Of a stretch of DNA of 64,000 nt, positions 10,001-58,618 are shown in pieces. The notes beneath the pieces are model-generated. The model saw only the letters and a list, made by a program, of their open reading frames with translations, had not been told where the DNA came from and did not search any database. Both the position numbers and the translations under genes were made by a program. Position 1 is the first letter of the stretch. Each line of letters begins with the position of its first letter. This DNA is from Thelephora terrestris (lineage: Eukaryota; Basidiomycota; Agaricomycetes; Thelephorales; Thelephoraceae): assembly GCA_015956445.1 (NCBI GenBank), contig WIUZ02000010.1:248001-312000 (forward strand), written 5' to 3'.

Positions 10001-10117
10001 TCAGATTCCAGTGGTGAGTTTTCCGTACGTGATGCTGCCTCCCATCCTTGCTAACTCATGCAGCATCTCCAAGCTTGTTATGTAGCGCCTGGTGCACCGT
10101 CTGGCTTACCCTCTTGA
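7048..10117 (+). CDS. NLR copy 2 with altered Walker A (K to Q)
   Basis: A complete six-exon gene model with consistent phases: 7048-7203, 7256-7398, 7457-7595, 7643-7726, 7784-10013 and 10086-10117, giving about 927 residues. Exons 1-4 (first ~175 residues) encode a helical N-terminal domain (ARDTSGIPPAQDAF, KQEYVDLGRLCAGVCRALDR), which resembles the four-helix HeLo/MLKL-type domains often found on fungal NLRs; that link is by analogy. Then come the NB region, the proline-rich repeat, the winged-helix-like part and TPRs. The P-loop reads GAGGIGQTS: the invariant lysine codon is CAA at 7964-7966, while copies 1, 3, 4, 5 and 6 have lysine. The protein may therefore not bind or hydrolyse nucleotide normally. 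The last exon is short (stop 10115-10117) because the 3' flank diverges here. Confidence 0.88.
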
Positions 10118-10887: not shown

Positions 10888-12761
10888 ATGGATCCTCCCA
10901 AATCTGACCCCCCTCGGCTCACTTGTATGTGTGCAAGGTGTACGCAATATTTACCTGAAGGAAAGGTCGTCCTGCAAAGGACGTGGTATTGGCATAACCC
11001 TGGTGGAAAGAAATCCAAATACGCCCCCCTCACGGCCGAACAGACCCTAGCATTTGATAGGATAGCCGCAATCCAGGACTCTCTCCCTCATCCTAGAAGC
11101 AATGCACGGAAGTGACGTCGTCTGGAAGTCGAAGAAGTCGAAGTTACCCCGCATCCAGCTAAGCGAGCCGCGGGGTCGGGCTCAGTAAGCATGCCCACAC
11201 TGCATATATGCGCCTCAAAAGTACGATACTCATAAAACAATTCATGTAGGGTACTCAGACTCTTATAGAAGTTATTCCTGAGCGTGAAACATCCCCAGAA
11301 ATGGGCCCAGTTTTTCCTCTGCCTGGGCCTGAGCCCGAGAGTCTCCCTCCTCCTCTGATCTCAAGCTGCCCCATCGAAGATACTGGCCAAGATCCTCCTC
11401 CACCCTCCCCTCCACTTGAAGAATCCCATGACAGAGCCCTTGATCCTCCTCCTTCTGGCTTGGACACAGGCCCCGATCCCCCACAGGATGGCGATTCCGG
11501 CGAAACTCCTCCCAGTGATGATGAAGATGACTCTCACATCACGCTGGATAGCATGAAAGAAAACTTCGCGTTCCTCCAGATGGTACGGGAAGCAACCCTA
11601 GAGGCTCAGTTCACTCCGGCTGAGCTCCAGTCCCTCCGGAATCCTGAAGACTCTAAGTTCGCCCCTTCTGACGACAAAGATCTCCTGTTATCTATCAAGT
11701 TCTTTATGTCGACCCTGGACCACCTCACATTGCAAAAGGCTTACACCGAGGCCCGTGAAAACATACTAGATCGTTATCCCGATTCAGGGATGCTATCTTA
11801 CGACCGGGTTAAGCAACTCGTATCTAATCTATCTGGGGTCCTTACTTGGAAACACGACATGCATCAGTCAACCTGGATTTCATCAAATAAGTGAAAATAA
11901 GTGCAAATAAGTGCCAATAAGTGAATAAGTGACGCTTATTTAAGCCAGGGTATTTTAGCGCCCGAAAAATTAGCACAGGAATAAGCGCAAATAAGTGCAA
12001 AAAGTAAAAAGTGATCACGAAATTCACTGATGTGTGTGTCGACTCTTGTGCCGCATTCATGGGTCCATTCGCTCCTCTGGAAAACTGTCCTCGATGTGGC
12101 AAGCCGCGATATGACCAAGAGAAACTCCAGACGTCTGGCGGAAAAGATAAGGTACCTCTGAAATCCTGCACGGCGATACCCCTCGGCCCACAGCTCCAGG
12201 CTTGCTGGAAAAATCCGGAGACTGCCGAAAAAATGTCCTATCGGCGAAAACTCAGGATCTATTGGAGAAGCTTGGCCGTGGTGAGGAATTTGACTATGAC
12301 GACATATTCTGTGGTGAGGATTATCTCAAGGCCGCACAGGAAGGTACCATCAACGAGCACAATATGGTCGTCACACTTTCTCTGGACAGCATGCAATTAT
12401 TTCGCAATAAAAAATCTGATTGCTGGATCTACATCTGGGTCATCCTCAACCTTGCTCCCGACCAACATTACAAGATACGGCACATTCTTCCGGGCGGTGT
12501 CATCCCCGGCCCAAAAAATCCCAAGCACCTTGACTCTTTCCTCTTCCCGGGTCTGGCACACGTCTCTGCCCTTCAAAAGGAAGGGTTACACATCTGGGAC
12601 AGCCTCAATAATACAGCTTTCAAGTCTTTTATCTACGTTCTTCTCGTGCTCATGGATGCCGTTGCCGCTGCTGATGTGAGTGGCGCTGTTGGTCACCACG
12701 GAAAAAAGGGCTGCCGGGTGTTTTGTGGGCTCGCCGGACGAAACAAGCCTGGTGGTCCTTG
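10888..12761 (+). mobile_element. Plavaka/Tnp2-type (CACTA-related) transposase, N-terminal half
   Basis: DNA transposon gene. An N-terminal cysteine motif (TCMCARCTQYLP) is followed by an acidic region, then the typical KQLVSNLSGVLTWKHDM, CVDSCAAFMGPFAPLENCPRCGKPRYD and IPLGPQLQACWKNPETAEKM, then DDIFCGEDYLKA, KKSDCWIYIWVILNLAPD, ILPGGVIPGPKNPKHLD and GHHGKKGCRVFCGLAGR. These strings are characteristic of agaricomycete Plavaka transposases. A reading-frame change at about 12235 (between MSYRR and KTQDLL), a small insertion at 11862-12034, and loss of homology after GGP at 12761 show that it is dead. The C-terminal end of a Plavaka transposase reappears at 24844, so the gene was probably split by what now lies between. 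About 350-400 central residues are not seen. Confidence 0.85.
11862..12034. mobile_element. ~173 bp insertion with AATAAGTG repeats in the transposase
   Basis: Related transposases read WKHDM directly into CVDSCAAF. Here the ATG of the methionine (11859-11861) is followed by 173 extra bases before the TGT of the cysteine. The insert begins CATCAGT and its 3' part contains ACTGATG, a 7 bp inverted pair, and holds at least six direct copies of AATAAGTG/AATAAGCG plus one inverted TTATT. No GT-AG intron fits. It is probably a small non-autonomous element or a local repeat expansion. Confidence 0.5.
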
Positions 12762-14655
12762 TCAGGGCCACTCTTTGCCCTTCAGGTACCAGTGCTGTTG
12801 GTGAGTTGCAACTCCAACCAACAAGAAACGATGGGGCAAAGGGGGAACAACTTCCCTATATCCACCCAAAGTCTACGTGGTCCAAAACGCGATGGACGAG
12901 CGTTCTCCGGTAGGTTGTCCAAATTCACAGCAGGAGTGCCGAGCCTCTATCCGATAGATCCCTATCTTTGTCTGAGGGCAGATATAAGAGCCCGAGGATG
13001 GCGCCTCAAACTGTTGCTTGATCAAGAGAGCGACGAGGAACTCCTTTTCGTAAGCGCGTTCGCCGATTCTTGATGCAAGGCCGAGAGAGGGAGGAGAGCG
13101 AACGTGTTCAAAGAGGTACTCAATAAGCTCTTCAGTGGCCTACAGCAAATACACCGATGCTGCAAGGAGAAGAGGACTTCCCGAGATATCAAAGATAGGG
13201 AATCCTCAGCTACTCTACTGGTACCTATATAGGAGAGTGGCCGGGACAGAGATAATCCTATCTAATAATAACTCGGAGCAAGGAAGGGCCGAGAGTAAGC
13301 CAGAACAGTAAGCGGCCCGGAACATAGAATAGAAATGACAAAGGAATGACTAATGGGTCAGGGTTCGTGAGAAACAAGAAAGGGGTAATGACGTCGTGTG
13401 GGAAAGGAATGACAAGGAATAATATCACATGCGAAGACTGACCAATAGGAGGACGACGCGTCAGCTCGTTCGATCGGGACAACAAAAGACCGAGTGGGGC
13501 TCGAATGTCGAGGCGAATGTATGGGGAGTCTGGTCCGGTGAAACAATGGGCCGATCCAATGGCAAATAGGGTGCGAGCGCTGTTGATAGTCGGATAAAGC
13601 GTAGCGCGAACCGGCCGTTGGATCCATCAAACTCCCTTCTTCTCGAATCAACAAACCCACCAAACAATTACTCCTCCAACCATGCCTATGATTTCCGATC
13701 GTGTCTTCCGTGCCGAGAACAGCACCGCCACCATCGAGTCTGCGGATCCTCGCTCCGTAGGAAACAAGGGTTACTTCCTGCCGAACGCCAATGTGGTGTA
13801 CCCCAGCTATCGAGAGGTGCGACGTCATGTGTCGCCGATTGCTGGCAACAACTGCATTACATTCGCAGATCTTCTCAGCGGCTGATAAGGTGGATGCCTG
13901 ACAACTGGAGGCTACGATTGCCAAGCCTCCCAGCTACCTAACCATGGACGACGAGTTGTGGTATCACAACTTGATCGACCACAAGCTGCAAGAGTCGATG
14001 CGTGGGGTGACGTTCAACACCGAGTTGCGCATGCCATGGGAGACTCCGGTGGTGTCCGCCTTGTGGGGTCTCCTGCAGATGGGGATCTACGATCTGGGGA
14101 ATGGCGAAGGAAGGTGGCCTGGAGCTACCCGCTCTCAACACCACACAGCAGCCGTTGGTCACCGCCTTTGGTTCCTTTTGCGAACGGAACAGAAAGCAGT
14201 GAGTCGATCTGTGCATCCCGCTTGTGGGATAACACTGATTGGCTTGTAGAACGAGCGTTTGAAACATGAGGTGAAGGAAGCGAAGGATGATGCCCGTAGA
14301 ATGTACTCAGAGGCGTTGGACACCAAGAAGACGCTTCTCCTGATGAACGACACACTTTGTGTGACGTTTGAGAGTGAGATGCTGGCAATGCGGGAGGAAC
14401 ACAACCGACTGGTGGAGTCGTTGAAGGAACGGGACGACACCATTCAGCGGGACCTGATCGAGGTCGACCAACGGCTCAACCGTCATAGAAGGGCCCTGAA
14501 TGAGCTGGACACCAAGGTCGGTGCGACTTCTCCTGGTCTTTTAACCAAGAGAGCTCATGCCACTTCTAGGTTGACACCCTGGATGATGCCTTGCCGTTGC
14601 TGGGCGCGCGGGTCGAGTCCATGAGTGAGCGGTTGTGCCACTGCCGAACTCGTTC
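12762..14655 (+). repeat. Outer arm of a large inverted duplication of cargo DNA
   Basis: Reverse complement of about 17427-19321 inside the Mutator-like element, about 90% identical where compared by eye. It starts at GTCAGGGCCACTC, precisely where the Plavaka homology ends, and stops at the left end of the Mutator-like element (14656). It contains the 5' flank of gene X, its TATA-like CTATATAGG (about 13226) and the first exons of gene X. Probably a fragment of a second, older copy of the same cargo-bearing element. Confidence 0.8.
13682..14655 (+). pseudogene. Gene X, truncated outer copy
   Basis: 5' part of the unknown gene X found complete at 16650-18399 on the - strand. It starts MPMISDRVFRAENSTATIES and retains introns at matching places: GTGCGACG...TTCGCAG after YPSYRE, GTGAGTCG...TTGTAG after EQKA, and one after NELDTK. 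Translated parts include MDDELWYHNLIDHKLQESM and a coiled-coil segment (KEAKDDARRMYSEALD). A stop follows KVDA because a codon differs from the inner copy (TGA at about 13898, where the inner copy has CGA). The gene is cut at 14655 by the end of the Mutator-like element. Confidence 0.7.
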
Positions 14656-16258
14656 AGTAGTCCTTATCATAATTGTGTACAATTTACTGCCAGATCTCGT
14701 AAAATTGTAATACTTTAACTCGTAGCGATTACAATGCTCAATGGCATTGCAATGCTGCCTGTGGCAGTTGCAATACCAGCTGCTCGGTACTCCTGATTAG
14801 GCAGGAGCCGACAATGTGGTAGCACCGAGTGACTGGGTGTGCTTATATAAGTGAGCCATGTGATTTTTCCAAAAAAGGAAACTTTGATGGCTTATATAAG
14901 CAGGTCAGGTGACTGAAAAAAGTGGGAGTTGCCGATGTAAGCAGATCATGTGACTGACCAAAAAAGGAAATCTTTGATGGCTTACATAAGCGACTTGAAA
15001 ATGATTTTGGCATTGAACTTCCCAAAGAGGAAATTTTGATGGCTGACATAAGCAGGTCATGTGACTGAAAAAAGTGGGTGTTGCTTATGTAATCAGGTCA
15101 TGTGACCGTCCAAAAAAGGAAAGTTTTGATGGCTTACATAAGTGTCTCAAAATTGCTTTTGGAGGGGTCTTTCCTAAAAAAGAAATTCCTTTTTAGGAAA
15201 TATTTGATGGCTTACATAAGCAGCTCAAAAATGCTTTTCACAAAAATTACCGAAAAAGGAAATTTTCTTTTTGGGAAAGAGTTTCCAAAAAAGGAAATTT
15301 TGATGGCTTACATGAGCAACTCAAAAATGATTTTGGCAAAAATTACCAAAAAAGAAATTTTCCTAAAAAGGAAATTATATGCCAGAAAAATCGGAAAAAT
15401 GCCAGAAAAATCTTAAAAAATACCGAGTGAGGGGGGCCGAGCGAAGCGAGGCCTAGGGAGATGGGCGGGGGCAAAGGGTAGGTGGGGAGGCCACCTTTCT
15501 GCCCTTTCGTCTCTTTATAGCCCAAGAGACTCATCAGTGCCGTTGCCAAGTAAGGAAGAAGTTACCAAATGCGGAGAACAAAGCGGGGTTATGGCTTGCT
15601 ATTGTTCTCCCCGTTGTGGGAACGCGCCGGAGGCGTGTTCCCATCAGAAGCGGATAAGGGGCCTGGGCCTTTGAGGTTGATGAATGTATTGTGATGCCCC
15701 TATCTTAGGGTTCGGATCTGCCGACCCCTATCTGTCACGCTGAAACGCGATCAGTGGAGTTAGAAGCATCAATTCATTACCTAAGCGTCTCTTTTGACAG
15801 TTTCCATCAGAGAAGTGTGATGATCAAAAAGAAGAGAAGACGTGATGCGTGATCAGATCAAAGAAGTTTGATCCGGCGCTTAACTTAATTACGTCTTTGG
15901 CACTTGTTCTATTTTTAGAAATTCCTATTTTTACGAGGGAGGGTAACCGATGTTGGGTTTGACCCCATCCGACTTAAACCCAACGTCGGTTACCCTCCCT
16001 CGTAAAAATAGGAATTTCTAAAAATAGAACAAGTGCCGAAGACGTAATTAAGTTGGACAGACGGCGGTTGCCCATGATAACGCACTAAAAGAAGACTTTT
16101 TGATGTCATCCGTCGTCCGAGGGCTCCGCGCGATGTCCCTCCCTCCCGTCTCTGCTTCAACACGTGTCTGATTCTGCTCGTTTGAGGGGGAAATACCACT
16201 TCCCTCACCCTTACCTTTTAACTTAGTTTTTTTAAATATAACGCAGAGAATTCATGAC
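14656..16258 (+). repeat. Left terminal inverted repeat of the MULE
   Basis: Matches the reverse complement of 23392-24843, apart from a nested element at 15889-16047 and more mismatches inward of about 16150. The outer 700 bp carries a subterminal array: six copies of GATGGCTTACATAAGC or close variants (about 14887, 14976, 15039, 15128, 15207, 15302) alternating with TCATGTGACTGA(AAAAAGTGG). The ATAAGC sites are half-palindromic (GCTTATATAAGC). Such arrays are plausible transposase-binding sites. The 104-codon frame across 15102-15416 is a by-product of these repeats. Confidence 0.85.
15889..16047. mobile_element. Nested 159 bp palindromic TTAA MITE
   Basis: An almost perfect palindrome, TTACGTCTTTGGCACTTG ... 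CAAGTGCCGAAGACGTAA, flanked by TTAA on both sides (15885-15888 and 16048-16051). The right arm of the host element has the empty site AACTTAATTGGACAG at about 23607-23618. TTAA duplication is the piggyBac pattern; the family is inferred from this alone. Arms are about 75 bp with a spacer of a few bases near GACCCCATCC. Confidence 0.8.
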
Positions 16259-16649
16259 AATGATGGATAAAAGAAAAGACATATGGCAGTGCACCTGTGT
16301 CGCCATGTCTTCCTCTCGCCAGGTCTCACTTGCCCCCGACACACCCACGCCAACGTTTCGTTCCAACCCGGTATCCCCCAGGACCCCAAGCCGCACTGTC
16401 AGCGTGCTGAATTTTATTCCCTTCTTGAACCATTTTCGCACCCAACTTTCGCCCACTTTCCTTACCCATACCCCTTTCTTATTTTATCTGTTTCCTTGTC
16501 ACGACTCACACGTCATCAAAAGACACAGACAAAGGCACAGATGATATTACAGCGGGCGAACCCGCAACAAAAACACAAGACGAATGGCCAACGGAGTTGG
16601 ATCCGCACCGACCCTATGGACAGAGACTAACGGGCACCCACTCTAGTCG
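16259..16649. other. MULE interior between left TIR and gene X
   Basis: C/T-rich sequence with no convincing coding frame. It lies downstream of the gene X stop codon and is probably gene X 3' flank. Confidence 0.4.
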
Positions 16650-18399
16650 TCAAGACCTGGTTTGCCAGTACTCCTCAGCACTGGCAATCTCCTCCTCCGT
16701 CTCCTCCGAGGCACTCTCGACGACTTCCTCGTCTACCATCTCGACGACCCGAGCTTCCTCCAGACGATGAGCGACGGCTAGCTGAACTTCGGCGCGCAGG
16801 CGGCTCCTCGCTGAATCGACCGTAGTCTGATCCAGAGTCCTCTGGACTGACCAACCCTCCACTCTCTCGGTCAGTTGAGCCACCAGGCGAACGGCCTCCG
16901 CTGCACGCTGGACCGACAAGAGCGTAAGGTCGGTTAAGCCGTTCACGTCGACGGACTCCACCGGAATCAGCTCGCCGCGATCCACGCGACATTGAAGCAT
17001 CATCGCGTCGGAATAGGGCGGTGGACTCAATGTCTCCACCCTGGCGGACAGCGTCGGGATTACTGGGACGCATGCGGTGGGCTGGACGAAGTGCCCCACG
17101 ATAAGGAACCCAACGACGAGCACGAATAGAACGCTGCCCACGCACCGGCGAGATCGACGGAGGCGGAACTGGAACGGCCACCTCGTTCTCCCCCGCGTAC
17201 TCCAACTCGGGAGAACTGCTAACCGGATTGACGGCCGTCTCCTCGGACGTCTCTCGAACGACCTCCTCCCCGCCATCAGTATGCGCAGGCGTGCGGTACG
17301 ACCCATCGGACGCTAAGAGGGATGTCAGTGGACAAGCAAATATGTCAACCAGCATCCCGACCTATTGGGGAAGCCATCCGATCCGGAATCGACTCGTCCC
17401 CGGACTCGTCGCGGACCGCAGCTACCGAGCGCGTACGGCAGTGGCACAATCGCTCGCTCATCGACTCGACCCGAGCGCCCAGCAACGGCAAGGCGTCATC
17501 CAACGTATCAACCTAGAAGTGGCGTGAGCTCTCCTAGTTAAAGACCAGGAGAAGTCGCACCGACCTTGGTGTCGAGCTCATTCAGAGCCCTTCGATGACG
17601 GTTGAGCCGTCGGTCGACCTCGATCAGGTCTCGTTGGATGGTGTCATCCCTTTCCTTCAGGGACTCCACCAGCCGATTGTGTTCCTCGCGCATCGCCAGC
17701 ATCTCGCTCTCAAACGTCACGCGGAGCGTATCGTTCATCAGGAGGAGTGTTTTCTTCATGTCCAACGCCTCCGAGTACATCCTACGAGCATCGTCCTTCG
17801 CTTCCTTCACCTCGCGCTTCAGCCGCTCATTCTACAGCCAATCAGTGTTATCCCACAAGCGGGATGCACAGATCGACTCACCGCTTTCTGTTCCGTCCTC
17901 AAAAGGAACCAAAGACGGTGACCCACGGCAGCTGTATAGTGTTGGGAGCGAGTCGCTCCAGGCCATCTTCCTTCCCCGTTCCCCAGATCGTAGATCCCCA
18001 TCCGCAGGAGCCCCCACAACGACGAAGCCACCGGAGTCTCATACGGCATGCGTAACTCGGTGTTGAACGTTACCCCTCGCATCGACTCCTGCAGCTTGTG
18101 GTCGATCAAGTTGTGATACCACAACTCGTCGTCCATGGTCAGGTAGCTAGGAGGCTTGGCGATCGTCGCCTCCAGTTGTCGAGCATCCACCTTGTCGGCC
18201 GCTGCGAAGATCTACAAATGCGATGTCAGTTGTTGCCAGCAAACAGCGACACGTGACGCCGCACCTCGCGATAGCTGGGGTACGCCACATTGGCGTTGGG
18301 CAGGAAGTAACTTTTGTTCTGCACGGACCGAGGATCCGCGGACTCGATGGTAGCAGTGCTGTTCTCAGCACGGAAGACACGGTCGGAGATCATGGGCAT
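16650..18399 (-). CDS. Gene X: unknown coiled-coil protein carried by the MULE
   Basis: I do not recognise the family. The ATG is at 18397-18399. Exons are about 18265-18399, 17882-18211, 17565-17831 and from 17512 downward, with GT-AG introns at positions shared with the outer copy. Predicted parts are an N-terminal MPMISDRVFRAENST, a conserved MDDELWYHNLIDHKLQESM and WGLLRMGIYDLGNGEG region, a long charged coiled coil (MLAMREEHNRLVESLKERD, RRALNELDTK), then an acidic proline-rich stretch. A downstream frame ending at 16650 has a hydrophobic run (VLFVLVVGFLIVG) followed by a helical acidic tail (VEMVDEEVVESASEETEEE). How that frame joins the rest was not resolved, so membrane anchoring is only possible. 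It is divergent from gene W across a 0.9 kb region with a TATA-like box. Confidence 0.55.
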
Positions 18400-19321
18400 G
18401 ATGGATGAGTAGTTGTTGGTGGGAGTGTTAGTTTGGAAGAAGGGAGTCTGATGGATCCAACGGCCGGTTCGCGCTACGCTTTATCCGACCATCGACAGCG
18501 CTCGCGTCCTATTCGCCATTGGATCGGACCATCGTTTCACCGGTCCAAGACTCCCCATACATTCGCCCTCAGCACTCAAGCCCCACTCGGTTTTTTGTTG
18601 TCCCGATCGGACGAGCTGACGCGTCGTCCTCTTATTGGTCAGTCTCCACATGTGATATTATCCTTTGTCATTCCTTTCCCACACGACGTCATGACCCCTT
18701 TCTTATTCTCTCACGAACCCCGACCCGTTAGTCATTCTTTTATTGTTTCTATTCTATAACCCGGGCCGCTTACTGTTCTCGCTTACTCTCGGCCCTTCTT
18801 TACTCCGAGTTATTATTAGCTAGGGTTATCTATGTCCCGGCCACTCTCCTATATAGGTACCAGTAGAGTAGCTGAGGACTCCCCATCTTTGATATCTCGG
18901 GAAGTCCTCTTCTCCTTGCAGCATCGGTGTATTTGCTGTAGGCCACTGAAGAGCTTATCGAGTAACTCTCTGAACACGTTCGCTCTCCTCTCTCTCTCAG
19001 CCTTGCATTAAGAATCGGCGAACGCGCTTACGAAAAGGAGTTCCTCGCCGCTCTCTTAATCAAGCACCAGTTTGAGGCGCCATCCTCGGGCTCTTGTATC
19101 TGCCCTCAGAAGACGACAGGGATTTACCTGATAGAGGCTCGGCACTCCTGCTGTGAATTCGGACAACCTACCGGAGAACGCTCGTCCATCGCGTTTTGGA
19201 CCACGTAGACTTTGGGTGGATATAGGGAAGTCGTTCCCCCTTTGCCCCATTGTTTCTTGTTGGTTGGAGTTGCGACTCACCAACAGCACTGGTACCTGAA
19301 GGGCGAAGAGTGGCCCTGACA
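18400..19321. promoter_or_regulatory. Divergent intergenic region between genes X and W
   Basis: Non-coding on inspection. It contains CTCCTATATAGG at about 18847, a TATA-like box also kept in the outer copy (about 13226), and a CT/GA-rich stretch nearby. The region is conserved at about 90% between the two cargo copies, including stretches with no open frame, which fits a shared control region or simple common descent. Confidence 0.35.
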
Positions 19322-20196
19322 CGCACGGCCTCTCGTCGTCCGCTGAACCCGGTTCAGTTCGGTGCAAGACAGCCGTTGCGAGATGACAAAATTTTCGTCC
19401 CATTCAGGATTGCCCTGCGAGAGGCCAAAACTCTCGTCACATTCGTCTACAAGTCCCGCCATTGCCAAGGAAAACTTGTTCCGATTCCCTAGTAAGCTCT
19501 TGATGGTCTCCATTACAATCTTTACTGATTCCCGACAACAGCCCTCGCAACAGTGATGGAGAACCGGTCCCCCCGGCAAAGCTGATAGATCACGTCGAGA
19601 GCAATGGCTGGGATACTAATCCCAATTGCTTCTGTTCCATCCGGGATCAAGAACGAGTTGCGGCCCTCTATGTCCCGAGAAAAATATCTTCCCCAGCCTA
19701 CGGTCAGATGAGCCTCGTTTGCCCCGAGTCTGAGTGCCCTTATTATGGTATATTTCGTCCTTTTCAAATTTCAGAATGTTCACTGACAACATACGTACAG
19801 TAAATATTCAAGAAATGTACGACAATGCAGAGACCCGCCAAACCCTTCTTAGCGTTGAGGACGATGGTAAGGATGCCAACCTTAATAACATGGAACAGCT
19901 ACTAACTTTATTTTTCACTAGCGATTGCATTGCCCCAGTCATCCGGGAAGAAGCGCAAAACTAGAATCCCAAGCTGGGAAGCGCGTGCATCTGGAGTCAT
20001 CCCCGTTGTCAATCAGTTTGACCTGATCTCCAAGCTGTTCAGCCGCATGGGAATTTCTCGTGGCGAATTTGATGCGTTGTTCGTGATCTGCCCGAAGTGC
20101 AACCGTGTCAGCCGTATCCCGCATTCTCAGTGTGTCATCGAAGTTGATGACAACTCTGAGCTAGATGATGACCTGGAGTTTATACTCATGAAGTAG
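19322..20196 (+). CDS. Gene W: GRF-like zinc-binding protein carried by the MULE
   Basis: Small multi-exon gene whose 5' end is uncertain: no ATG was fixed, and it may begin up to 70 bp upstream. An exon ending KLVPIP at 19492 is joined over a 53 bp intron (GTAAGC...CAACAG, with a TACTGAT branch-like site) to PRNSDGEPVPPAKLIDHVE and then CFCSIRDQERVAALYVPRK ... LVCPESECPYYGIF. The C-x-C ... C-x4-C spacing with an aromatic end is like GRF zinc fingers, which bind single-stranded nucleic acid. Another exon ends LLSVEDD, and an intron at 19867-19921 leads to the last exon with FVICPKCNRVSRIPHSQC, a second possible zinc site, and an acidic end. Middle exon borders near 19750-19830 are unresolved. 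The role is unknown; it could assist transposition. Confidence 0.5.
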
Positions 20197-20327
20197 ATCT
20201 TACCACACCTGTTGACGTGTCTTGACAAATATATCACCATTATGTTTTGAACAAAATTTAGTGCCCGAGTGATGTTTCGGTTTAAGAAGACATGGCACAT
20301 CGAAGGAGGGGTCAATTTCATTCTAAG

Positions 20328-23300
20328 TTAAAGAGTACTATATGACTTGATACGCTTTGTACTTTTTTTAGTTTCGGGGGAGGGAGGCAAGAGAGCAAAC
20401 CGTTTTGTGGGCGTTCGGGGAGGCGAGGGGGTACACATCCGGGATTTTGGTGGATCAAGAGTCTGAGTAGCACGCTGATGACCGGCATCTGGCACCATGG
20501 TACTTGGAGGTGGACCCGATGTGAATGTCGTCGACTCGAGTTGATGAGAAAGCATGGAGATGAGACCTGAAAATTCAACATCCATAACCTTCGGTCTGAA
20601 ATCTTGAAGGAGATTTGAGATTCCGTAGAGGTTTGGGAGGGAATTCTTGATGAAGTGATCAAGGCGTTGTTGGTTTTGAATCTCAATCGCATTGCGGTTA
20701 TCCTTGAGCGTTGTATCTGATTCGACGGCCGGGGTCAACTCGGGAATTTCTGGGTCCTCGAGTGCAGTGACACTCTCCTCAAGCTCAGCCTCTTGGTCGA
20801 TTGTTGGGATGAGTGAAATGTCAGGATGATTCGGAGGGGGGAGTGGTACGTGTGTTGATGATTTATGGAGGGTTGGTGGGCAGGTCGCGGACAAAGTATC
20901 TCGGCTGGCAGGTGCTGTTACAGAGTGGTCGTAGTAATGCCCGTACCAACGCTTATTCTTTTCCAATACATGGCAGGCATCTGACTCGCTACCAGGAAAG
21001 TAGAACTCGTGTGTAATTTGACCGCCTTTCGCCCATGAAGTAATCAGGTCACGAAAGGCTCGAAGGTGCTTGCAGGCTCCACCTCGGTTCAACCAGTCAG
21101 CGCAGGTACATGTGGCATGACCAGATGGGTGTGCAGTCAGCCAATAGCGAAGGTGGCCTGGATCACTGACATTGGCACTTGTAGAGGCACAAGTCGCCCA
21201 TAATTTGAATGGCTTCATACTTGGGATTGGCGTGATGAGGCGCAAGCGAATGATGTCCTTCGAAAAGCCGTCCCGGATGGGGTCGGGAGAATACCACGCA
21301 ATGGCAACGGGCGAAACCTGGGTGGTCCTCTCTGCCGCACGAAGCTGTCGCGAAAGTCCATGGACACCCGCAACGTTCGCGAACCGTTCCTTCTTCCATG
21401 TCTCGAATGAGTGAGTGAGGCGGAACTGTGCATAGATGTTGGGCATGATGTACAGGATGAGGCGAAACACAAGGACGTCAAAGCGGAGTTTTCGTCCCGA
21501 CCGTTGCCATTGGCTTATGTGTTTTCGCTTGAGGACTCCGTTGAATGATTCGAGGTGGTTCGTCGTCGGGAGAACATCACCAATGTCGACGCCCAGGACC
21601 TCTGCTGCACGGCTCCTTCCCTCCTCTGACCAGCTGTTCCAGAGCGATTGTGGCATCCAAGTTGCCATAAGGTAGTCGATGTACTTGAGGCCAGCTCGCC
21701 CACTACTCTCACTCTTGGGGTCAGTCAACATATCCTCAAACTTCTTGCATTCGGAACGAAGCTGCTTCAGGGCGGCGTCACGAGTCGTGCATGACAGGAG
21801 GCTATGTAGCATGTCATTCAGCAGCAGTTCTCCGATAAATGAAATATAAAATAGACGTACAATGTATCCAGACTATGGACACAGCCAAGAGCCTTTTCCT
21901 TGAAAAAACTAGTCTCATTCTTTGCGCCGAAGAGGTTGTTCCGCTTATTGGTCCAACACTGCCGCAGGTGAAACCGACATAGAAGGAGGGTGATTTCCGG
22001 CCAGACACTGATCAAGGCACCTCGTTCCTTGGTATCCGTGTCTGTGATTGCAACTGTGGGCTCCAGTTTACCTGGCGCGAATGAACCTTTCCACTTGCTG
22101 AGAAGTTTCATGAGAATCGCGGTGTCGTAACCGGCATGTGTCGCCTTTGCACCAGAGGGAGCCGAAAACAGAAATATTGCAACAGGAACACCATGGTTCC
22201 CCTCGTTTACTCCCATCGCGATCCATACGAGGAGCCTAGAGGCACTTAAACCGAACGTTCCATCGAGGATGAGCTGCCTTTTGTGGACGAATTGGACCGC
22301 GGCAGACCGCATCTCGGGTGTCGATATACATAACTCGAACCGTTCACCTGCTTCCACCCGGGGAGCATAGTGGAAGACGGCCTCTGCAATCGTTGGGTTG
22401 AAGGTCGGGCTCGTGCCTTTCATCCAATTGTCGACATTTGCTTCAGGCTTGACATCGACATTGATACCTTGCAAACGGTAGTAACGGCGGTACAAGCGGC
22501 TGAAGTCTGAACGAAGAAGTTCGTAGCGGTGGTTCGAACGTTCGCTAATATCCCGGTACCGTCCATGCTCGACCCGCCAAACATTCTCGGCCTAAATAGC
22601 GGTGATGCTGATGAAGATGTTAGGCGGCAGGGAACAACGACAGTATCTTAGGGACGTACCTGGCGCCCTGGGATAGTTGCTCAAGGGCAACCTCATAGAC
22701 GTGTTCATGGAGGGGGATTGATGGATACCTGACGAGCGTCGCATTCTGGCACTCGTCATTGTGTTCGAAGTAGCCGATTATCCTCAAGACATTGAGACTA
22801 GATTTGTCGTATGTAATATCTGCATGCGCCCAGCACCCAGTGAAATCGTATGGTGCCTGGCGTGACCACTGATCCTTTGACTGCGAAGACGATCGCTTCT
22901 GTCTCGCCTCGGTGCTGTAACCGCACGAACTGCCAGCAGCCACGTCAAATAGGGATGCTGCAAACAACACTGTTGGCTCTTACCATTGATATAATTTCCT
23001 GCATTTTTTCGCCCAAGAATTGGTCCGCACTGAAGTCCAACGACTCTCAAGGTTGGCAAGTGTATCAGTTGTCAAAGCATGGAGCTTGAGGAATTTTTCT
23101 GCGCGTTGCTGTGATTCTGGGCTTGCTGTGAACTCGTGGTAGACGGTCATGGACTCTTTGTAAAGTTTCTCGATAGCCGACGCCTGTTTCTCGTTGATGA
23201 ACAGGTGACCTATTGATGGCTGGAGTCACATTTGGCACGGTGAGTATGATTCTGATTGAAATTCAAGATCTTTACCTTTGTGTCTCTTCGTGAAGGTGAG

Positions 23301-23650
23301 TATGTGCTCACGAGCACAGGCGCAGCCCTCTGAAGCAAAGGTTGGCAACGACCCCCAAAAACGAACCACAAAAAATTGCCATGATTTTCATTATCCGTGT
23401 TATAATTCTGCGTTATAATTAAAAAAACAAGTTGAAAGGTAGACCATGGGGGAAGTGGTATTTCCTCCTCAAGCAGTAGATTAGAGCGGAACGAGAGACG
23501 TGTTGAAGCAGAGACGGGAGGGATGGACATCGAACGGAGCCCTCGGACGACGGATGACATCAAAAAGTCTTCTTTTATTGCGTCATCATGGGCGACCGCC
23601 GTCTGTCCAATTAAGTTAAGCGCCGGATCAAACTTCTTTGATCTGATCAC
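20328..23650 (-). CDS. MULE transposase with SWIM zinc finger
   Basis: Catalyses cut-and-paste transposition. Main exons: about 20328-21810, 21863-22590, 22660-22925 and at least one or two upstream. An N-terminal zinc-like region (GCWAHADITYDK ... GYFEHNDEC) is followed by the DDE core: LILDGTFGLS (first Asp), PTVAITDTDTKERGAL (second Asp) with CRFHLRQCW, and TTNHLESFNGVLKRKH (Glu). Next comes a SWIM motif, CTCADWLNRGGACKHLRA. Introns include GTACGTCC...TATTTAG at about 22590-22660 and GTACGTCT...ACATAG at about 21815-21862. No break was seen in the core. Upstream exons (LLQRAAPVLVSTYSPS, KQASAIEKLYKESM) run toward, and the longest frame reaches into, the right terminal repeat, so transcription may start inside it. 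The start codon is uncertain. Confidence 0.85.
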
Positions 23651-24843
23651 GCATCACGTCTTCTCTTCTTTTTGATCATCACACTTCTCTGATGGAAACT
23701 GTCAAAAGAGACGCTTAGGTAATGAATTGATGCTTCTAACTCCACTGATCGCGTTTCAGCGTGACAGATAGGGGTCGGCAGATCCGAACCCTAAGATAGG
23801 GGCATCACAATACATTCATCAACCTCAAAGGCCCAGGCCCCTTATCCGCTTCTGATGGGAACACGCCTCCGGCGCGTTCCCACAACGGGGAGAACAATAG
23901 CAAGCCATAACCCCGCTTTGTTCTCCGCATTTGGTAACTTCTTCCTTACTTGGCAACGGCACTGATGAGTCTCTTGGGCTATAAAGAGACGAAAGGGCAG
24001 AAAGGTGGCCTCCCCACCTACCCTTTGCCCCCGCCCATCTCCCTAGGCCTCGCTTCGCTCGGCCCCCCTCACTCGGTATTTTTTAAGATTTTTCTGGCAT
24101 TTTTCCGATTTTTCTGGCATATAATTTCCTTTTTAGGAAAATTTCTTTTTTGGTAATTTTTGCCAAAATCATTTTTGAGTTGCTCATGTAAGCCATCAAA
24201 ATTTCCTTTTTTGGAAACTCTTTCCCAAAAAGAAAATTTCCTTTTTCGGTAATTTTTGTGAAAAGCATTTTTGAGCTGCTTATGTAAGCCATCAAATATT
24301 TCCTAAAAAGGAATTTCTTTTTTAGGAAAGACCCCTCCAAAAGCAATTTTGAGACACTTATGTAAGCCATCAAAACTTTCCTTTTTTGGACGGTCACATG
24401 ACCTGATTACATAAGCAACACCCACTTTTTTCAGTCACATGACCTGCTTATGTCAGCCATCAAAATTTCCTCTTTGGGAAGTTCAATGCCAAAATCATTT
24501 TCAAGTCGCTTATGTAAGCCATCAAAGATTTCCTTTTTTGGTCAGTCACATGATCTGCTTACATCGGCAACTCCCACTTTTTTCAGTCACCTGACCTGCT
24601 TATATAAGCCATCAAAGTTTCCTTTTTTGGAAAAATCACATGGCTCACTTATATAAGCACACCCAGTCACTCGGTGCTACCACATTGTCGGCTCCTGCCT
24701 AATCAGGAGTACCGAGCAGCTGGTATTGCAACTGCCACAGGCAGCATTGCAATGCCATTGAGCATTGTAATCGCTACGAGTTAAAGTATTACAATTTTAC
24801 GAGATCTGGCAGTAAATTGTACACAATTATGATAAGGACTACT
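23392..24843 (-). repeat. Right terminal inverted repeat of the MULE
   Basis: Reverse complement of the left arm without the nested TTAA element. The empty site TTAA is at 23611-23614. The translated repeat frame (24083-24397) is identical to that of the left arm, showing near-zero divergence over that part. It overlaps the probable 5' end of the transposase gene. Confidence 0.85.
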
Positions 24844-25421
24844 GCGGCCCTATCCTCTTTCTGCGGCAGAAAAAAATTCAATCAATGTTTTTTTCCCTAA
24901 TTTAAGGTCTACCTCAAGAGAGACTATCTACCGATGGGCAAGACTCCAGATTCCTAACGGACAAATCGCCCATTCCTTTTGGAAGGAGGCTATCTGTACC
25001 ACAAACGGCGCTCGGACTGATCGCAACGTTAAGGTACGCGATCTGATTCTTACGTCTAACCTTAATTTTACGGCTGACATTGATTTAGATCTCATATCAA
25101 GGAGCCCTTCACCTAGCGGAAATCCAGTTCTACTTCCAGATCGCTTCCGAGGGAGTCAACGAAACCCTCGCCCTCTGTTCACTATATTCCCCAATTGAGG
25201 AAAATATCAGAACTTATTCAAACAACACGCTTAATGTATGTACTTACAATGGACAGTCCGAGTTAGTTGTGGTTCGTGTAAATACTATTATTTCGGTCGT
25301 AGCTATGATACCATTCGGTGAGCAGGGCGAAGGGACTCAAGATTTTTTTTTGGTAGAAAAATTTGCATTAAGCGTAGTAGACACGGGTACGTCGGATACT
25401 TTGGATGATGTAGACGCGTGA
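24844..25421 (+). mobile_element. Plavaka/Tnp2-type transposase, C-terminal end
   Basis: Reads RWARLQIPNGQIAHSFWKE, then TDRNVK, an intron (GTACGCGATC... to about 25087), EIQFYFQIASEGVNETLAL, LCSLYSPIEE, an intron-like gap, SVVAMIPFGEQGEG and FFLVEKFALSVVD. These match the C-terminal end of agaricomycete Plavaka proteins (RLPNGQIARSAWKE, AEVQYYF, SVVAMVPH, FFLVEKPGLDV). It follows immediately after the right end of the MULE and stops just before the Copia element. It is probably the other part of the gene whose N-terminal half ends at 12761. Confidence 0.8.
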
Positions 25422-25430
25422 TCCGAATAT

Positions 25431-25784
25431 TGTTGAACCGAAGGTCTGTGCCCGGCAACGGGTCAACCGGCTCCACCGCTTCGAGCGAGAGCCGATGCCG
25501 GAGAGCGCTGAATAAGCGACCCGAAGAGACGGTGTCACATCAGTGACCCGATCGATCAGTATGACGCGCGCGTGCCTTAAAGCCGCCGCACAGACCATGC
25601 ATCAGTCACACTGTATAGATGTGACATTAATAGAGTAGATAGTATATATACCCCTCATGTGTCCATAGATAAATCAATCGCTTCTCTCTCTCTCTCTCCC
25701 ACTTGCACTACTATATCTTCCCCTCTCAGGTAAGAACTAGAGTACGCCATGTAGTAGTATAGAATATACTCTACCTGCTCAACA
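25431..25784 (+). repeat. Copia left LTR
   Basis: 354 bp, TG...CA ends. It contains a TATATATACC box, a run of CT dinucleotides, and a CAGGTAAG string near the 3' end that could be a splice donor. Confidence 0.95.
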
Positions 25785-26193
25785 GGTTATGAGCCCGGGC
25801 TACGCCCTGTGTTCCAAGCTGCGCCTCTGTGGCTGCGCTGTGAACAGGCTCTAATCTTACCTTAGTGCGCCCTCTGTGGCTGCCACTGCGCTATCCACTG
25901 CGCAGGAAGGGGACTTAGAACAAAAAGTCAAAACCCCAAAAAGGGGATGAAACAGTGACTGGCTAAGCTGAGCACAACACACATTCGTAGACCCCATAAG
26001 GGGAGGGTAGTCGATTAACATCTGCCGACGGTGTGGACTGAGGCAACATGCAATAAACCTCTCACTAAAGTAATCCTTAAAAGGGAAAGGCTAATTCTTC
26101 CCTCTTTCATTGCATTTGGCATAGAAGCGTTCATTAACTAATGACTCTTGTTTTTGGGCGTAGGCACTTCCACCCCCCAAAAACCAAAGAAAC
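25785..26193 (+). other. Copia leader with half-tRNA primer site
   Basis: Starts GGTTATGAGCCC, the complement of the anticodon stem-loop of initiator tRNA-Met (GGGCTCATAACC) and not of its 3' CCA end. Copia elements are known to prime from such an internal tRNA fragment. The rest is leader sequence with no other feature seen. Confidence 0.7.
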
Positions 26194-29100
26194 ATGTCGT
26201 CTCAGCTTACCTCTCTCGTCCCCGTCCTTGAAGGTCCCAATTATCAGCGATGGGCCCCTGCCGTCAGAAGCTTCTTAATGGCACAAGGACAGTGGAGACT
26301 GATGAAGAAGGGAAAGCCTACCAAAACGGTACGACCATATATAGCAGCTGTCCCTGCCACCGATGATGCTGAAGAAATTCCGGCACAGGAGGGAGGTGAA
26401 GACATTGACGAAGATGCGCTCGAAGCGTGGGAGGAAAACAACTCCAAAGCCCTCGGAAATATATTCCTGAGGCTAAGCCCTGACATCCAGGCAAAACACA
26501 AGTCCGAAGAGGACGCTTGGGCCTTGTATCAGGCAATCGATGCGGAATATGGGAAACCCAGCGTGATGGGGATCTATTCAGAGTTCAAAAGCGCTCTGGA
26601 CGTACAGATCCCTGGAAACGCGGACCCCATCCCAGCGATAGATAAAATCATGGCCCATTTTGGTCGACTCGCTGAAGCCAATGCAGCAGTCCCAGATTTC
26701 ATCAAAGCCATGATGATACTCTCCCGGATGCCCCCTGCCTACGATTACCTTGCCCAGATCCTCTGCCAGGCCGACGATATCGGTAAAGTCCAGATCGATG
26801 AGCTGAGGAAAATGGTCAAACTGGCCTGGGAGCAGAAGTCCAGCTCCCGTCGCTCCGGACAACAAGCACAAAAGTTGTCCAACGTACAGTGCGCCCCTGG
26901 GAACCCAAACTTCCAGCAGCAGCAGCAGCAGCACGACGGGAGCCAGCCCCAGGGCCAAGGCCGAGGACGAAACCGCCGAGGACAAAGAGGAGGTCGAGGA
27001 AGATTCCAGCAACAGGCTCAGCAAACTGACGAGTCTCAAATGCCACCTCCCCCTCCACAACCTCCGGTTCCCTCCAGCTCTAACATCTCGGTCTCGGATT
27101 ATGGTTTTGCCTCCATGGCGGCTTTTCCCGTACGCCATCCCCCCGTCCATCGTCAAGGCACAGGGGCCCCTTCCTTCTACCCCTCCGTACAGGAGGCTAG
27201 GGACCTTGCAGCACGCATAAGCGTGAAACCTTCGATCGAGACCCTAAAAAGGCTGGAACGCTCTTATGAGCAGACAATCGATCCTCGCCCCCGCAAAAAG
27301 GCGCGTACCCCGCCGGGCGAGGATGAAGTAAGCCTGGGATGGTCGGATGATGAGATGGATGTTGTCTCCCCTGCGTCGGTTGCCGGTCCGTCTGGCCATG
27401 GTGGAAGGTATGAAACAAATTTAGTGTTGAGTAACGAAACTAACGACTCCACAGCACCTGAAGATAAGTCTAGGTCTTCAGTAGTAGCTTCCAAATATAT
27501 TTGTTTTACCTTGTCTGCCCCGAGTGAAACTGAAGCTGTGTGGATGCTCGATTCTGGAGCATCCCGGCACTTTACTTTTGACATAAACGACTTCGTGGAG
27601 TACGAGGCTATTGAGTCCATTCCTTTAAGAACAGCGACCAGCTTCACGACAATCGTTGGTAAAGGAACAGTGGTCCTCCACATAAACGAAAAGGCCGTTC
27701 GGCTAAGCCCTGTCTATCATGTCCCAGACATCTCCCATAGGCTGCTATCCCTTGGTCAGTTCCTCAAAAGCGGACTCCTCTCGAGGGGGAGTGCTCGCGA
27801 AGTCTCACTCTATGAGGAAGAAACAGAATTTCTTACCTTCCACCCTCGAACCGAGGATGACAGTATTTACGTCATAAAAACTCTCCTCGGAGCGCAACTT
27901 ACTGCTGCTAAAATTGAGACCGTTTATAGTGCTGATTTTGAAATCATGCACCGCCGACTGGCTCACCCCTCAAAAGAAGTGATCCAAAAGGCTGGGAAAC
28001 ATGTCAAGGATTTTCCTCATGTCGAAATCCCAAAAGAGCACCTCTGCACTGGATGTGCGCAAGGAAAGATGACAAATAAAACCTTTCCCCCATCCAACAC
28101 CAGAGCAAGCGCCCCTTTCGAGCTGATCCATTCGGATCTAAAAACCTTCCCCATTGAATCCTATCGCAAGTACAAGTACTCAATCGTCTTCTATGACGAC
28201 TATACCTCACACGCCTGGACCATGAATTTGCGCACTAAGGACGCTGCACTTATGGCTACCAGACACTTCCTGGCTATGGTTGAAACCAAGTACCAGAAGA
28301 GAGTACGTCGATGGATGTCCGATGCCGGGGGAGAATACACGTCCCTAATATTTACAACGATGCTCAAGGAAAAAGGGATTGAGATCCTCCAATCTATTCC
28401 GCATGCACACCAACAAAACGGTCGCGCGGAAAGGATCATTCGAACATTAATGGATAAGGCAGAATCCATGAGACTACAGGCTTGCCTCCCTCAGTCTTGG
28501 TGGGAATTCGCCCTTGACCACGCAACTCACGTTTACAATCGAACGCCGAACCGTCGCCTAAATTGGCAGACTCCATTCCAACTATTAAATGGAAGTAAGC
28601 CTTCAATTGATCACCTTCGGGTCTTCGGCTGCGGAGCCTACGTCTTCATCCCGGAAGAAGTACGGATAAACAAACTCGCGCCCCGATCAGAATTGATGAC
28701 CTACCTGGGTACTCACCCGGGAGGAAAAGGATGGATCTTTATGCGCGGACCCAACAACATCATTTTCTCCGCTGCTCAGGCCACCTTCGACGAGTTGCAC
28801 TTTCCAAAGTGCCCAACTGCCAGTGTGCGGCGAAACACACGGCTGCAATCTACTGCGCCACCCCTACCCAGTCATCACTGTCACAAAGACGGTGACTGCC
28901 AGTGTCCCCTTCCAGGAGGACAAGAGGAAGATGACGCAGCACCCTCAACGTGTCTCAAACCTACCCCCAAGCCTTCATCAAAAGGCAAGGAACGTGCTAT
29001 TGAGCCAGCACCACGGTCGCAGACACCAGTGCAATCTAGAGCGCCCAGTTCGGAGCCGCCGAGATCGCCTACACCCAGCTCTAGCTCTGATTCCGGCCCT

Positions 29101-31086: not shown

Positions 31087-31162
31087 GCACATACCTCCAA
31101 CTTACTGCAGTCCAGTTCCCACCAATGAAGTTATACAGGGAGCTGTACTTAGTAAGGGGGAG

Positions 31163-31516
31163 TGTTGAACCGAAGGTCTATGCCCGGCAACGGGTCAACC
31201 GGCTCCACCGCTTCGAGCGAGAGCCGATGCCGGAGAGCGCTGAATAAGCGACCCGAAGAGATGGTGTCACATCAGTGACCCGATCGATCAGTATGACGCG
31301 CGCGTGCCTTAAAGCCGCCGCACGGACCATGCATCAGTCACACTGTATAGATGTGACGTTAATAGAGTAGATAGTATATATACCCCTCATGTGTCCATAG
31401 ATAAATCAATCGCTTCTCTCTCTCTCTCTCCCACTTGCACTACTATATCTTCCCCTCTCAGGTAAGAACTAGAGTACGCCATGTAGTAGTATAGAATATA
31501 CTCTACCTGCTCAACA
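31163..31516 (+). repeat. Copia right LTR
   Basis: Same length as the left LTR with about four mismatches. It is followed directly by the AATAT target duplication. Confidence 0.95.
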
Positions 31517-43100: not shown

Positions 43101-43322
43101 ACTGAACAGGCGATCACAAGCCAGTCTATCTCGGGCAAATCAGATTCCAGTGGTGAGTTTTCCGTACGTGATGCTGCCTCCCATCCTTGCTGACCCCATC
43201 TATAAGCTTGACGTGTAGCACCTGGTGCACCATCTGGCGTCAACTTCCTGACCAAGGAATCCAGGATCCGGACAGGTGCCTCATTCCCGGACGGAACATT
43301 TGTCACTCTTTCTCCTATGTAG
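40165..43322 (+). CDS. NLR copy 3, most diverged, with a probable splice-site defect
   Basis: Same six-exon plan: 40165-40323, 40378-40520, 40579-40717, 40773-40865, a main exon up to the GTGAGT donor at about 43154, and 43219-43322. The N-terminal helical domain is DACHGIPPAQVAFGIAGALL, DFVDLGLACARVCKALDRG and DKIARWNRELDRIRQIF. The P-loop is intact (GAGGIGKTS). The proline-rich repeat and TPRs are present. In copies 1, 2, 4, 5 and 6 the phase-correct acceptor of the main exon is an AG directly before CCAGG; here that site reads CAAA, and the nearest AG (CCAG) would shift the frame. The last exon ends early (FVTLSPM) because of an extra GT. Divergence from the other copies is highest of all, including the promoter, so it may be the oldest lineage. 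Confidence 0.82.
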
Positions 43323-58300: not shown

Positions 58301-58618
58301 CTCCCATCCTTGCTGACCCCATCTATAGCTTGACGCGTAGCACCTGGTGCACCGTCTGGCGTCAACTTCCTGACCAAGGAATCCCGGATCCGGACAGGTG
58401 CCTCATTCCCGGGCGGAACATTTGTCACTCTTTCTCCTAGACACCCCGTCCATCACACCCGCACATCGTTCCATCTCTTATCATTTTACCGTGTTCATCG
58501 CTGGCATGTATCATCTTTAAGTAGACCTATTTTCTCTCCTGGCCTTCTTCCTTCTACCTTCCATTCCAAGGCCACCAATGCCAGCCGCACCCGTAAACAA
58601 TCCGACCTGCGATGGTGA
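55310..58618 (+). CDS. NLR copy 5
   Basis: Complete six-exon gene with intact P-loop and Walker B, the same splice sites as copy 2, and a 92-codon last exon (58341-58618). The first half of the main exon is almost identical to copy 1 (VKDRFGDNRRFLRCDRFPPS, GVANPEDL, KKIKAA/VVEE context), while its TPR region differs (LASLLLGDKQLDAAETAA, YHMAALFSSEGEFGNAN). It appears intact. Confidence 0.9.

Follow-up and report, generated by a model that had tools for sequence, protein, structure and literature searches.

Retrotransposons seem only rarely to carry genes within their LTRs. Mouse mammary tumour virus sag, a protein gene of an animal retrovirus, lies within the LTR in sense orientation, and the coding region of HTLV-1 HBZ lies mostly outside the LTR. 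HBZ transcription starts from the 3' LTR (PMC10186651). Among plant Ty3/gypsy elements, Retand, Grande and RIRE2 carry additional antisense ORFs, which are placed between pol and the 3' LTR, one per element; the main text of that report never uses the word 'intron' (PMC11963269). For Penelope elements, an arrangement has been described in which two of the terminal repeats are direct and one is inverted; Pen2a and Pen3a of Adineta vaga also have target-site duplications (TSDs), palindromes where the inverted repeats join and unrelated inserts between the pLTRs (PMC3846280).

In the present study, a window of 64 kb from Thelephora terrestris (GCA_015956445.1, contig WIUZ02000010.1, positions 248,001-312,000 of the forward strand) was analysed, and all coordinates below are those of this window. 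Three elements lie nested in it: a MULE sits within a long hairpin and an LTR within the MULE, the two inserted elements each having their own target duplications. We consider it highly probable that the whole is a nest of hairpin, MULE and chromovirus solo LTR, and that gene X is an antisense LTR gene of the chromovirus. A non-autonomous hairpin, built of inverted pseudo-LTRs from a Penelope-like retroelement, would have come first; a MULE carrying a transposase and gene W would then have inserted into the hairpin, and a chromovirus would finally have inserted into W and left a solo LTR behind. The features are as follows.

12760-14654, plus strand (X on the plus strand): second X-bearing LTR, 89-90% match to 19321-17422.
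14655-16054, no strand: outer hairpin (foldback), with left arm 14655-15960, a 15-nt loop and the start of the second arm 15976-16054 (inverted repeats I1 and I8).
16046-16054, no strand: left copy of the 9-bp MULE duplication AATTAAGTT.
16055-23608, no strand: MULE, ends GGACAGACGG...CCGTCTGTCC, imperfect TIRs of about 200 bp.
16305-20196, plus strand: gene W, which belongs to the MULE, with exons at 16305-16396+19327-19491 (the LTR lies between the two parts), 19542-19747, 19801-19866 and 19922-20196.
16392-16396, no strand: left copy of the 5-bp LTR duplication CGCAC.
16397-19321, plus strand (the gag-pol direction): solo LTR of a Ty3/gypsy chromovirus, 2,925 bp, TGTCAG...CTGACA.
16650-18399, minus strand: gene X, antisense in the LTR, 496 aa, exons 18399-18265, 18211-17882, 17831-17565, 17512-17362, 17312-17224 and 17168-16650.
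18850-18856, plus strand: TATATAG, a possible sense promoter that would be divergent from X, sole match to the pattern in the LTR.
19322-19326, no strand: right copy of the LTR duplication CGCAC.
20328-23225, minus strand: MULE transposase gene, open frames 22980-23225, 22620-22979, 21818-22591 and 20328-21872 (exon-sized, borders approximate).
23609-23617, no strand: right copy of the MULE duplication AATTAAGTT.
23618-24844, no strand: remainder of the second hairpin arm, 100% complementary to 14655-15881.

The long inverted ends described in the earlier note are real: the arms 14655-15890 and 23609-24844 match at 100% over 1,236 bp and hold the GATGGCTTACATAAGC / TCATGTGAC array. Relatives of the hairpin end in CAGTAGTCCTTA, and a 7-bp TSD was found at 6 of the 17 loci tested, the other 11 being without it. 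At the hairpin ends in the window (14655 and 24844) inspection gave no target duplication, and this copy also lacks an RT ORF. Four relatives (L020-L023) have an open frame of 1,037-1,168 aa in which RVT_1 was detected each time (E 2e-6 to 6e-6), at 26.6-27.9 bits, under the Pfam cut-off of 29.6. In L020, two direct terminal repeats and an inverted one occur together with a 7-bp TSD; L021 also has the direct and inverted pLTR layout, but the TSD is absent, and the inverted repeats of both are 1.3-1.4 kb long. The RT motifs of these relatives are, we presume, Penelope-like. Since RVT_1 stayed below the cut-off, the label Penelope-like stands on the layout and on these motifs, by which the outer hairpin appears to be Penelope-like; it is not a MULE. 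A DIRS element or a DNA transposon with 7-bp TSDs was provisionally set aside given the RT frames and the direct and inverted repeat layout. A PDB search using the RT frame of the family gave no match, and no GIY-YIG endonuclease was found by Pfam at E<=0.1 in the four ORFs, which among Penelope elements would be compatible solely with the endonuclease-deficient branch. The family resembles Pen2a and Pen3a in the features given above, and differs in that the four relatives have no Pfam endonuclease domain, in the length of the inverted repeats and in a TSD of 7 bp where present. The second X-bearing LTR is truncated at the left end of the hairpin, and its missing part of about 1 kb is not resumed to the right. 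The Rfam scan of the window and five loci gave a c-myc IRES model in L022 as its sole match, judged spurious.

The MULE measures 7,554 bp, or about 4.6 kb once the inserted LTR is discounted. Only one other copy was found (C60:782844-789697), which is 98.8-99.2% identical, ends at the corresponding inner termini, is flanked by a 9-bp TSD of its own (ATCACTATG), bears neither the long arms nor X, and shows an empty site where the LTR sits in the window. The duplication is 9 bp in both copies, within the 8-11 bp of MULEs. The transposase matches the MULE domain PF10551 (E 6e-9, 36.6 bits against a cut-off of 27.6), which upholds the type given to it before, whereas the SWIM zinc finger also claimed for it is a weak match (15 bits, cut-off 19.6). 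The earlier note had read 14656-24843 as a single large MULE whose array TIRs measure 1.45 kb and in which X and W were accessory or captured genes. The arms, transposase, X and W are indeed contiguous and the arms identical, but the target duplications put the MULE ends at 16055 and 23608, inside the arms, the C60 copy does without arms and X, and arm sequence occurs in 103 matching pieces across the genome against two places for PF10551. Such a single MULE with giant TIRs is extremely unlikely, and was rejected on the inner target duplications together with the C60 copy. The element with the long arms is no MULE, nor is X the cargo of one; capture of X by the MULE was rejected on the empty site and the LTR-borne copies of X. 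As to W, the two divergent genes can both be modelled as spliced, as had been claimed, and W lies within the MULE in both copies, 98% identical between them. Its exon borders were set by eye and agree with the paralogue L043. Exon 1 is uninterrupted in the C60 copy and interrupted by the LTR in the window, so that W is broken here. W had been called GRF-like; it gave no Pfam family at E<=1 and no PDB match at E<=10, and thus the name relies on a CxC..C..C pattern spotted by eye. Elsewhere in the genome W has about 10 paralogous loci, which are about 40% identical to it and match it in their exons; at 4 of the 5 loci read, another repeated gene lies alongside. W is probably a captured gene. That it is instead a true accessory gene of this MULE lineage is possible but doubtful: its presence in both copies with an intact exon 1 in C60, and a distance from the paralogues that points to long residence, agree with this, while the paralogous loci and their repeated neighbour argue against it, as does the finding that PF10551 detects no MULE transposase in the genome beyond the two copies. 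The earlier note had taken full-length family members lacking X and W, with both as single-copy host genes elsewhere, to speak against element genes. The outcome is mixed: X is missing from the C60 copy and W is present there, and neither gene is a single-copy host gene elsewhere, X being highly repeated and W having the paralogues. The element is like other MULEs, gene-capturing ones included, in its transposase domain, 9-bp TSD and extra gene, and unlike them in that just two copies were found and that W retains its introns and stands tail-to-tail with the transposase.

TG..CA ends and a 5-bp TSD were present in 10/10 testable solo LTR copies, the window included. In a full-length relative at C5, X lies on one strand and gag and pol on the other, and in L040 the Pfam domains RT, RNase H, H2C2, SH3, chromodomain and CCHC exceed the cut-off, with the integrase rve at 25.5 bits under its cut-off of 32.6. 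The LTR pair of L040 is 99.9% identical over the 939 bp read, and another pair 99.97% over 2,960 bp. A Ginger-type DNA transposon, considered for the X unit on account of its TGT ends, which we take to be a Ginger-type feature, was rejected by the 5-bp TSDs and the gag-pol element. Gene X, as modelled from the DNA, has an open spliced frame of six predicted exons (five introns) and one hydrophobic helix, and its product may be a membrane-anchored coiled-coil protein. It gave nothing above the cut-off in Pfam, no convincing match in PDB and no relative in the viral contigs scanned; the confidence of the structures predicted for the exon 2 and exon 6 frames is very low, with a mean pLDDT of 39.8 and 42.1. 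The search with exon 2 returned 571 candidates, and 605 in a second family, of which 150 per family were scored. This second chromovirus family, with a pol 78-79% identical, has a diverged homologue, X', at the same location and in the same orientation (34-36% identity, E 4e-19), and its breaks fall at corresponding places, between exons 2 and 3 and between exons 3 and 4. Each of the 11 close pol copies found has exon 2 of X or X', in antisense orientation, on either side. Outside X', the sister LTR aligns with that of X over only 35 bp, and in the portion of it read no TATATAG-type pattern was found. In the single X' copy pair, third-position bias is seen in exons 1, 2 and 4/5 and is absent from the C-terminal frame (10, 17 and 12 of 170). 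X would be a chromovirus gene inside the LTR, upstream of the likely sense promoter and read away from gag-pol; its transcription is predicted to be divergent and its transcript spliced. It would be duplicated into both LTRs at every round and persist in solo LTRs, and we propose that its spliceosomal introns survive because X runs antisense to the RNA template of reverse transcription.

Among 16 chosen copies from one genome, the median dN/dS of X was 0.080 (range 0.020-0.163, 120 pairs). When the frame was shifted by 1 or 2, the ratio was about 1.6, and the antisense frames gave 0.18 in one, which has its wobble positions in common with X, and 1.3 and 2.6 in the others. Compared with the window, 15 copies change by 12-35% at third codon positions and by 0.3-16% at positions 1 and 2; the introns have 1-nt indels, and the exons are free of indels in 12 of the 15 copies and affected in 3. 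That X is a functionless open frame, trapped in the LTR by chance, is very unlikely, for the low dN/dS and the indel-free exons argue against it, as do the survival of a homologue in a sister LTR that is otherwise hardly alignable and the presence of X or X' beside every close pol copy; in its favour are stops in 5 of the 15 copies and the empty Pfam and PDB searches. The abundance of LTR copies (150 scored of 571 candidates, against 3 pol copies at 100%) could mean that X-bearing LTRs spread by themselves as 2.9-kb non-autonomous units, with pol supplied in trans, and are not recombination relics. The intact TSDs of the solo copies agree with this, and so do the private changes of seven close copies (6 solo, 1 from a full element), which are 42 N : 76 S, with few amino-acid changes (neutral expectation 2.35:1, assuming transition weight 4). 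However, LTR-LTR recombination gives the same structure, the copy counts refer to one exon only and are biased to well-preserved copies, and we know of no priming site in a solo LTR; we hold self-spread to be unlikely. The introns of X are less variable than its four-fold sites, a contrast that goes beyond a simple coding model and that CpG effects explain only in part; in the sister pair it is absent in intron 1 (24/99). An improbable but broader reading would make the LTR a dispersed gene, in which an expressible, intron-bearing gene for a membrane protein would be kept in hundreds of solo LTRs and maintained by selection after insertion. X would then work in trans, controlling or aiding the retrotransposon as a counterpart of HBZ, and synonymous sites of the mature mRNA would outpace the introns in divergence because copies evade mRNA-directed silencing.

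The preferred reading, X as an antisense LTR gene of the chromovirus, can be set beside the known systems. X is like sag in its LTR location, sag differing by its sense orientation. With HBZ and related antisense retroviral genes it would share, by prediction, the antisense orientation, spliced forms and LTR-driven expression (PMC10186651), and unlike HBZ it lies entirely inside the LTR with six predicted exons. Like the ORFs of Retand, Grande and RIRE2 (PMC11963269), it is an extra gene opposite gag-pol, retained across copies and with no assigned function; unlike them, it is within the LTR, with two copies in a full element and one in a solo LTR. Among the open-access matches listed, no title or abstract opening describes a spliced antisense gene that lies entirely within an LTR. 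The LTR of an abundant retrotransposon is an unusual place for a conserved, antisense, intron-containing gene, and X may act as an accessory or regulatory factor of the retrotransposon. Its position would explain how introns can pass through reverse transcription in a retrotransposon, and why a gene can outlast the loss of gag-pol. LTR genes also probably account for some of the 'hypothetical proteins' annotated in this genome.

An earlier note had read positions 14656-24843 as one Mutator-like element (MULE) with long array arms and two cargo genes, X and W. The window corresponds to C2:248001-312000 of a 40.6-Mb genome in 60 contigs, which is probably fungal, judging by its STAND/TPR genes, its retrotransposon with a chromodomain and its introns of only some 50 nt. 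The content of the note proved real, as long inverted arms enclose a MULE transposase (PF10551, E 6e-9; a SWIM match of 15 bits is below the cut-off) and both genes are present. However, boundaries and ownership are not as described, and the stretch consists of the following nested layers:

14655-16054 and 23618-24844: outer hairpin
16055-23608: MULE, inserted in the second arm of the hairpin
16048-16247 and 23407-23614: terminal inverted repeat (TIR) of the MULE, imperfect, 85%
16305-20196, + strand: W, a gene of the MULE
16397-19321: solo LTR, inserted in exon 1 of W
16650-18399, - strand: X, a gene inside this LTR

The transposase was detected at two places, in the window and on contig C60, by protein search as well as by the PF10551 model, and neither found a third copy genome-wide. 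Comparison of the two copies gave the limits of the MULE, with termini GGACAGACGG...CCGTCTGTCC. The 9-bp AATTAAGTT flanks the window MULE on both sides at these inner ends (16055/23608); the C60 copy, with 98.8-99.2% identity, has identical ends and ATCACTATG on both sides, and no match to the long hairpin arms was found there. Therefore, the TIR of the MULE is the imperfect repeat, and the long arms cannot be retained as its termini. Furthermore, the C60 MULE runs directly from the sequence preceding 16397 into that following 19321, with only one CGCAC at the junction, an empty site that removes X from the cargo of the MULE. The exon 1 frame of W (MSSSRQV...SRTASR...), uninterrupted in C60, is split by the LTR in the window. 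A 2.2-kb insertion with an apparent 12-bp duplication (one mismatch) lies in the C60 transposase region (C60:784599-786815, within locus L019), and thus neither copy has both genes uninterrupted.

The genome-wide search placed W beside the transposase in both copies, in the same arrangement, and also elsewhere. A degenerate fragment is present on C12 (82% identity with three stops; DNA 89.9% over 725 bp), and about 10 further loci have 34-44% identity, six of which are no more than about 20 kb away from the end of their contig. Another conserved gene adjoins the W-like gene at four of the five loci read (L018, L042-L045, of which L018 and L042 give identical matches), with no Pfam match in the two copies of it that were scanned. 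Exon borders, compared by eye, are common to W and its paralogues. The simplest reading is that the MULE captured W.

The long inverted arms, 14655-15890 and 23609-24844, are perfect complements (100% along 1,236 bp). The outer element is a single hairpin whose arms measure about 1.3 kb, made of 14655-15960, a short loop, and 15976-16054 continuing at 23618-24844. Four related loci hold a frame of 1,037-1,168 aa whose RVT_1 match does not reach the cut-off:

C23:2188800-2197400: L020, hairpin relative with reverse transcriptase (RT) frame
C59:1544300-1552400: L021, the same
C56:2480500-2487500: L022, the same
C23:711000-719000: L023, the same

Five RT places were found genome-wide, and the fifth, at 59% identity, is L062 (C19:330000-337000), near a contig end, in which the frame lies between direct repeats 334 bp or more in length. 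In both L020 and L021, the terminal repeats comprise two direct copies and an inverted one, in agreement with the layout described for Penelope elements in PMC3846280. From these RT frames and repeats, we therefore read the outer element, with moderate confidence, as a hairpin of pseudo-LTR only, from an endonuclease-less Penelope-like family. Six of 17 related loci tested (L020, L026-L029 and L038; L023 and L032 stood outside this test) have a duplication of 7 bp at the CAGTAGTCC end; none was found there in the window copy, L021, L025, L030 and the remaining tested loci, some ends of which were not reached. A small 98% palindrome at 32279-32860 has the same CAGTAGTCC ends, and no target duplication was found around it. 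Both the MULE and the hairpin belong to known element types, of which they are new representatives.

Another X-bearing LTR (12760-14654) stops where the hairpin starts, and its remainder is absent on the right side, with no duplication left. The hairpin is therefore younger than this LTR, unless a rearrangement brought the two together. The order of events is the hairpin, then the MULE into the hairpin, then the second X-bearing LTR into W. Just right of the nest lies a Ty1/copia element (25431-31516), whose 354-bp LTRs are 98% identical and whose open polyprotein frame spans 1,640 aa. Large duplicated segments hold five similar 750-762-aa frames (233-2515, 7766-10051, 40905-43190, 48658-50943 and 56064-58313), a predicted NLR-like gene cluster; the first, the sole one scanned, matches TPR, with nSTAND1 below the cut-off.

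The unit inserted in W is 2,925 bp long, starts with TGTCAG, ends with CTGACA and is flanked on both sides by CGCAC. A perfect 5-bp duplication was seen in all nine further complete solo copies read; L014, L017, L036, L046-L049, L051, L052 and L059 were left out, their LTR copies being incomplete or reaching past the stretch read. On C5, two such units (99.9% identical over the 939 bp of the pair read) surround a 5.9-kb interior with a 535-aa gag frame carrying a zinc knuckle and a 1,263-aa pol frame, in which RT, RNase H, H2C2, Tf2-type SH3 and chromodomain are above the cut-off and rve below. The element is a Ty3/gypsy chromovirus.

Gene X runs opposite to gag-pol and was modelled with six exons and 496 codons. 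Its introns measure 49-55 nt, and inspection by eye gave a plausible branch site for four of the five. When 15 other copies were compared with the window copy, the difference was 12-35% at third codon positions and 0.3-16% at the first two; exon indels were absent in 12 (present in L047, L049 and L050), and 1-nt indels were common in introns. Ten of these copies have no stop, winB and L050 one each, and L046, L047 and L049 two each; counting that of the window, 11 complete LTRs were read, and the frame is broken only in L050. The median dN/dS was 0.080 (range 0.020-0.163; Nei-Gojobori, 120 pairs). As controls, the same codons in frames +1 and +2 had medians near 1.6. Reading them antisense in three frames gave 1.26, 0.18 and 2.58 (0.18 in the frame sharing wobble positions with X), and six frames of the region upstream of X gave 0.61-0.83. 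Private changes in seven close copies (six solo, one of a full element) were 42 amino-acid changing and 76 silent, with 0 stops, against a neutral expectation of 2.35:1 when transitions are assumed to weigh 4, changes before and after insertion not being separable. Four-fold sites of exons 1-4 differ by 19-49% from the window copy, versus 6-13% for introns, L049 and L050 being the exceptions among the 15 copies at 27-29%, and those of exon 6 by only 3-7% in 9 of 11; this pattern may reflect a mosaic or unusual constraint.

A search with the RT region of pol yielded 89 matches, of which 3 were at 100%, 8 at 78-79% and the others at 43% or less. On C12, the sole 78-79% copy whose LTRs were read, the LTR pair is 99.97% identical over 2,960 bp and carries a homologue, X', antisense like X (34-36% identity, E 4e-19). 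The X-X' match opens with the first exon 2 residue and is interrupted where exons 2/3 and 3/4 meet; X' introns were placed by eye at these breaks, and exon 1 by position only. By blastn, the two kinds of LTR share an alignment of just 35 bp, besides which they have a dozen identical bases at their extreme end. For one X' pair (L060 and the LTR nested in L025), changes were counted in exons 1, 2 and 4/5 and in the C-terminal frame. The exons show third-position bias, with 9, 24 and 17 changes at position 3 versus 2, 10 and 7 at position 1. The C-terminal frame has 10, 17 and 12 changes at positions 1, 2 and 3, without such a bias, which leaves the 3' portion of the X' model unsupported. L025:2987-6282 is a hairpin element that itself took in this X'-family LTR. 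Antisense exon 2 of X or X' lies on both sides of 11/11 close pol copies, two tandem copies on C23 sharing one LTR. Exon 2 has 571 candidates for X and 605 for X', of which those beyond the 150 scored per family may include fragments or other-family copies; thus pol-bearing copies, 3 and 8, are a small minority. Among the best 150 scored, 134 and 145 have no stop, shares that are upper estimates because the best copies were scored.

Basic residues precede the single strong hydrophobic segment of X (VGSVLFVLVVGFLIVGHFV, residues 334-352), as would fit a protein anchored in a membrane whose coiled-coil part lies N-terminal to the anchor. The product of X is probably a membrane-anchored coiled-coil accessory protein. 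The sole TATA-like site of the LTR, in gag-pol direction, is at 18850, on the far side of the X start (18399), and none was found by the same pattern in the part of the sister LTR read. U3 may therefore contain X, with transcription of X and gag-pol diverging from a common promoter region; because the genomic RNA has the opposite orientation, splicing would not remove the X introns from it, and they would survive reverse transcription. The role of X might be to help, restrain or disguise the element, and the closest analogy is HBZ-like regulation (PMC10186651). In the plant elements with antisense genes (PMC11963269), these genes are located between pol and the 3' LTR, whereas X is wholly inside the LTR. 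Extra ORFs occur in rotifer LTR elements, where the sole 'antisense' in the main text of PMC5408684 refers to small RNAs, and no closer precedent was among the matches listed in the open-access literature, which included papers on mouse mammary tumour virus and on gene therapy. What is new, as a variation on the antisense genes already known, is a predicted spliced antisense gene wholly within an LTR and common to two retrotransposon families.
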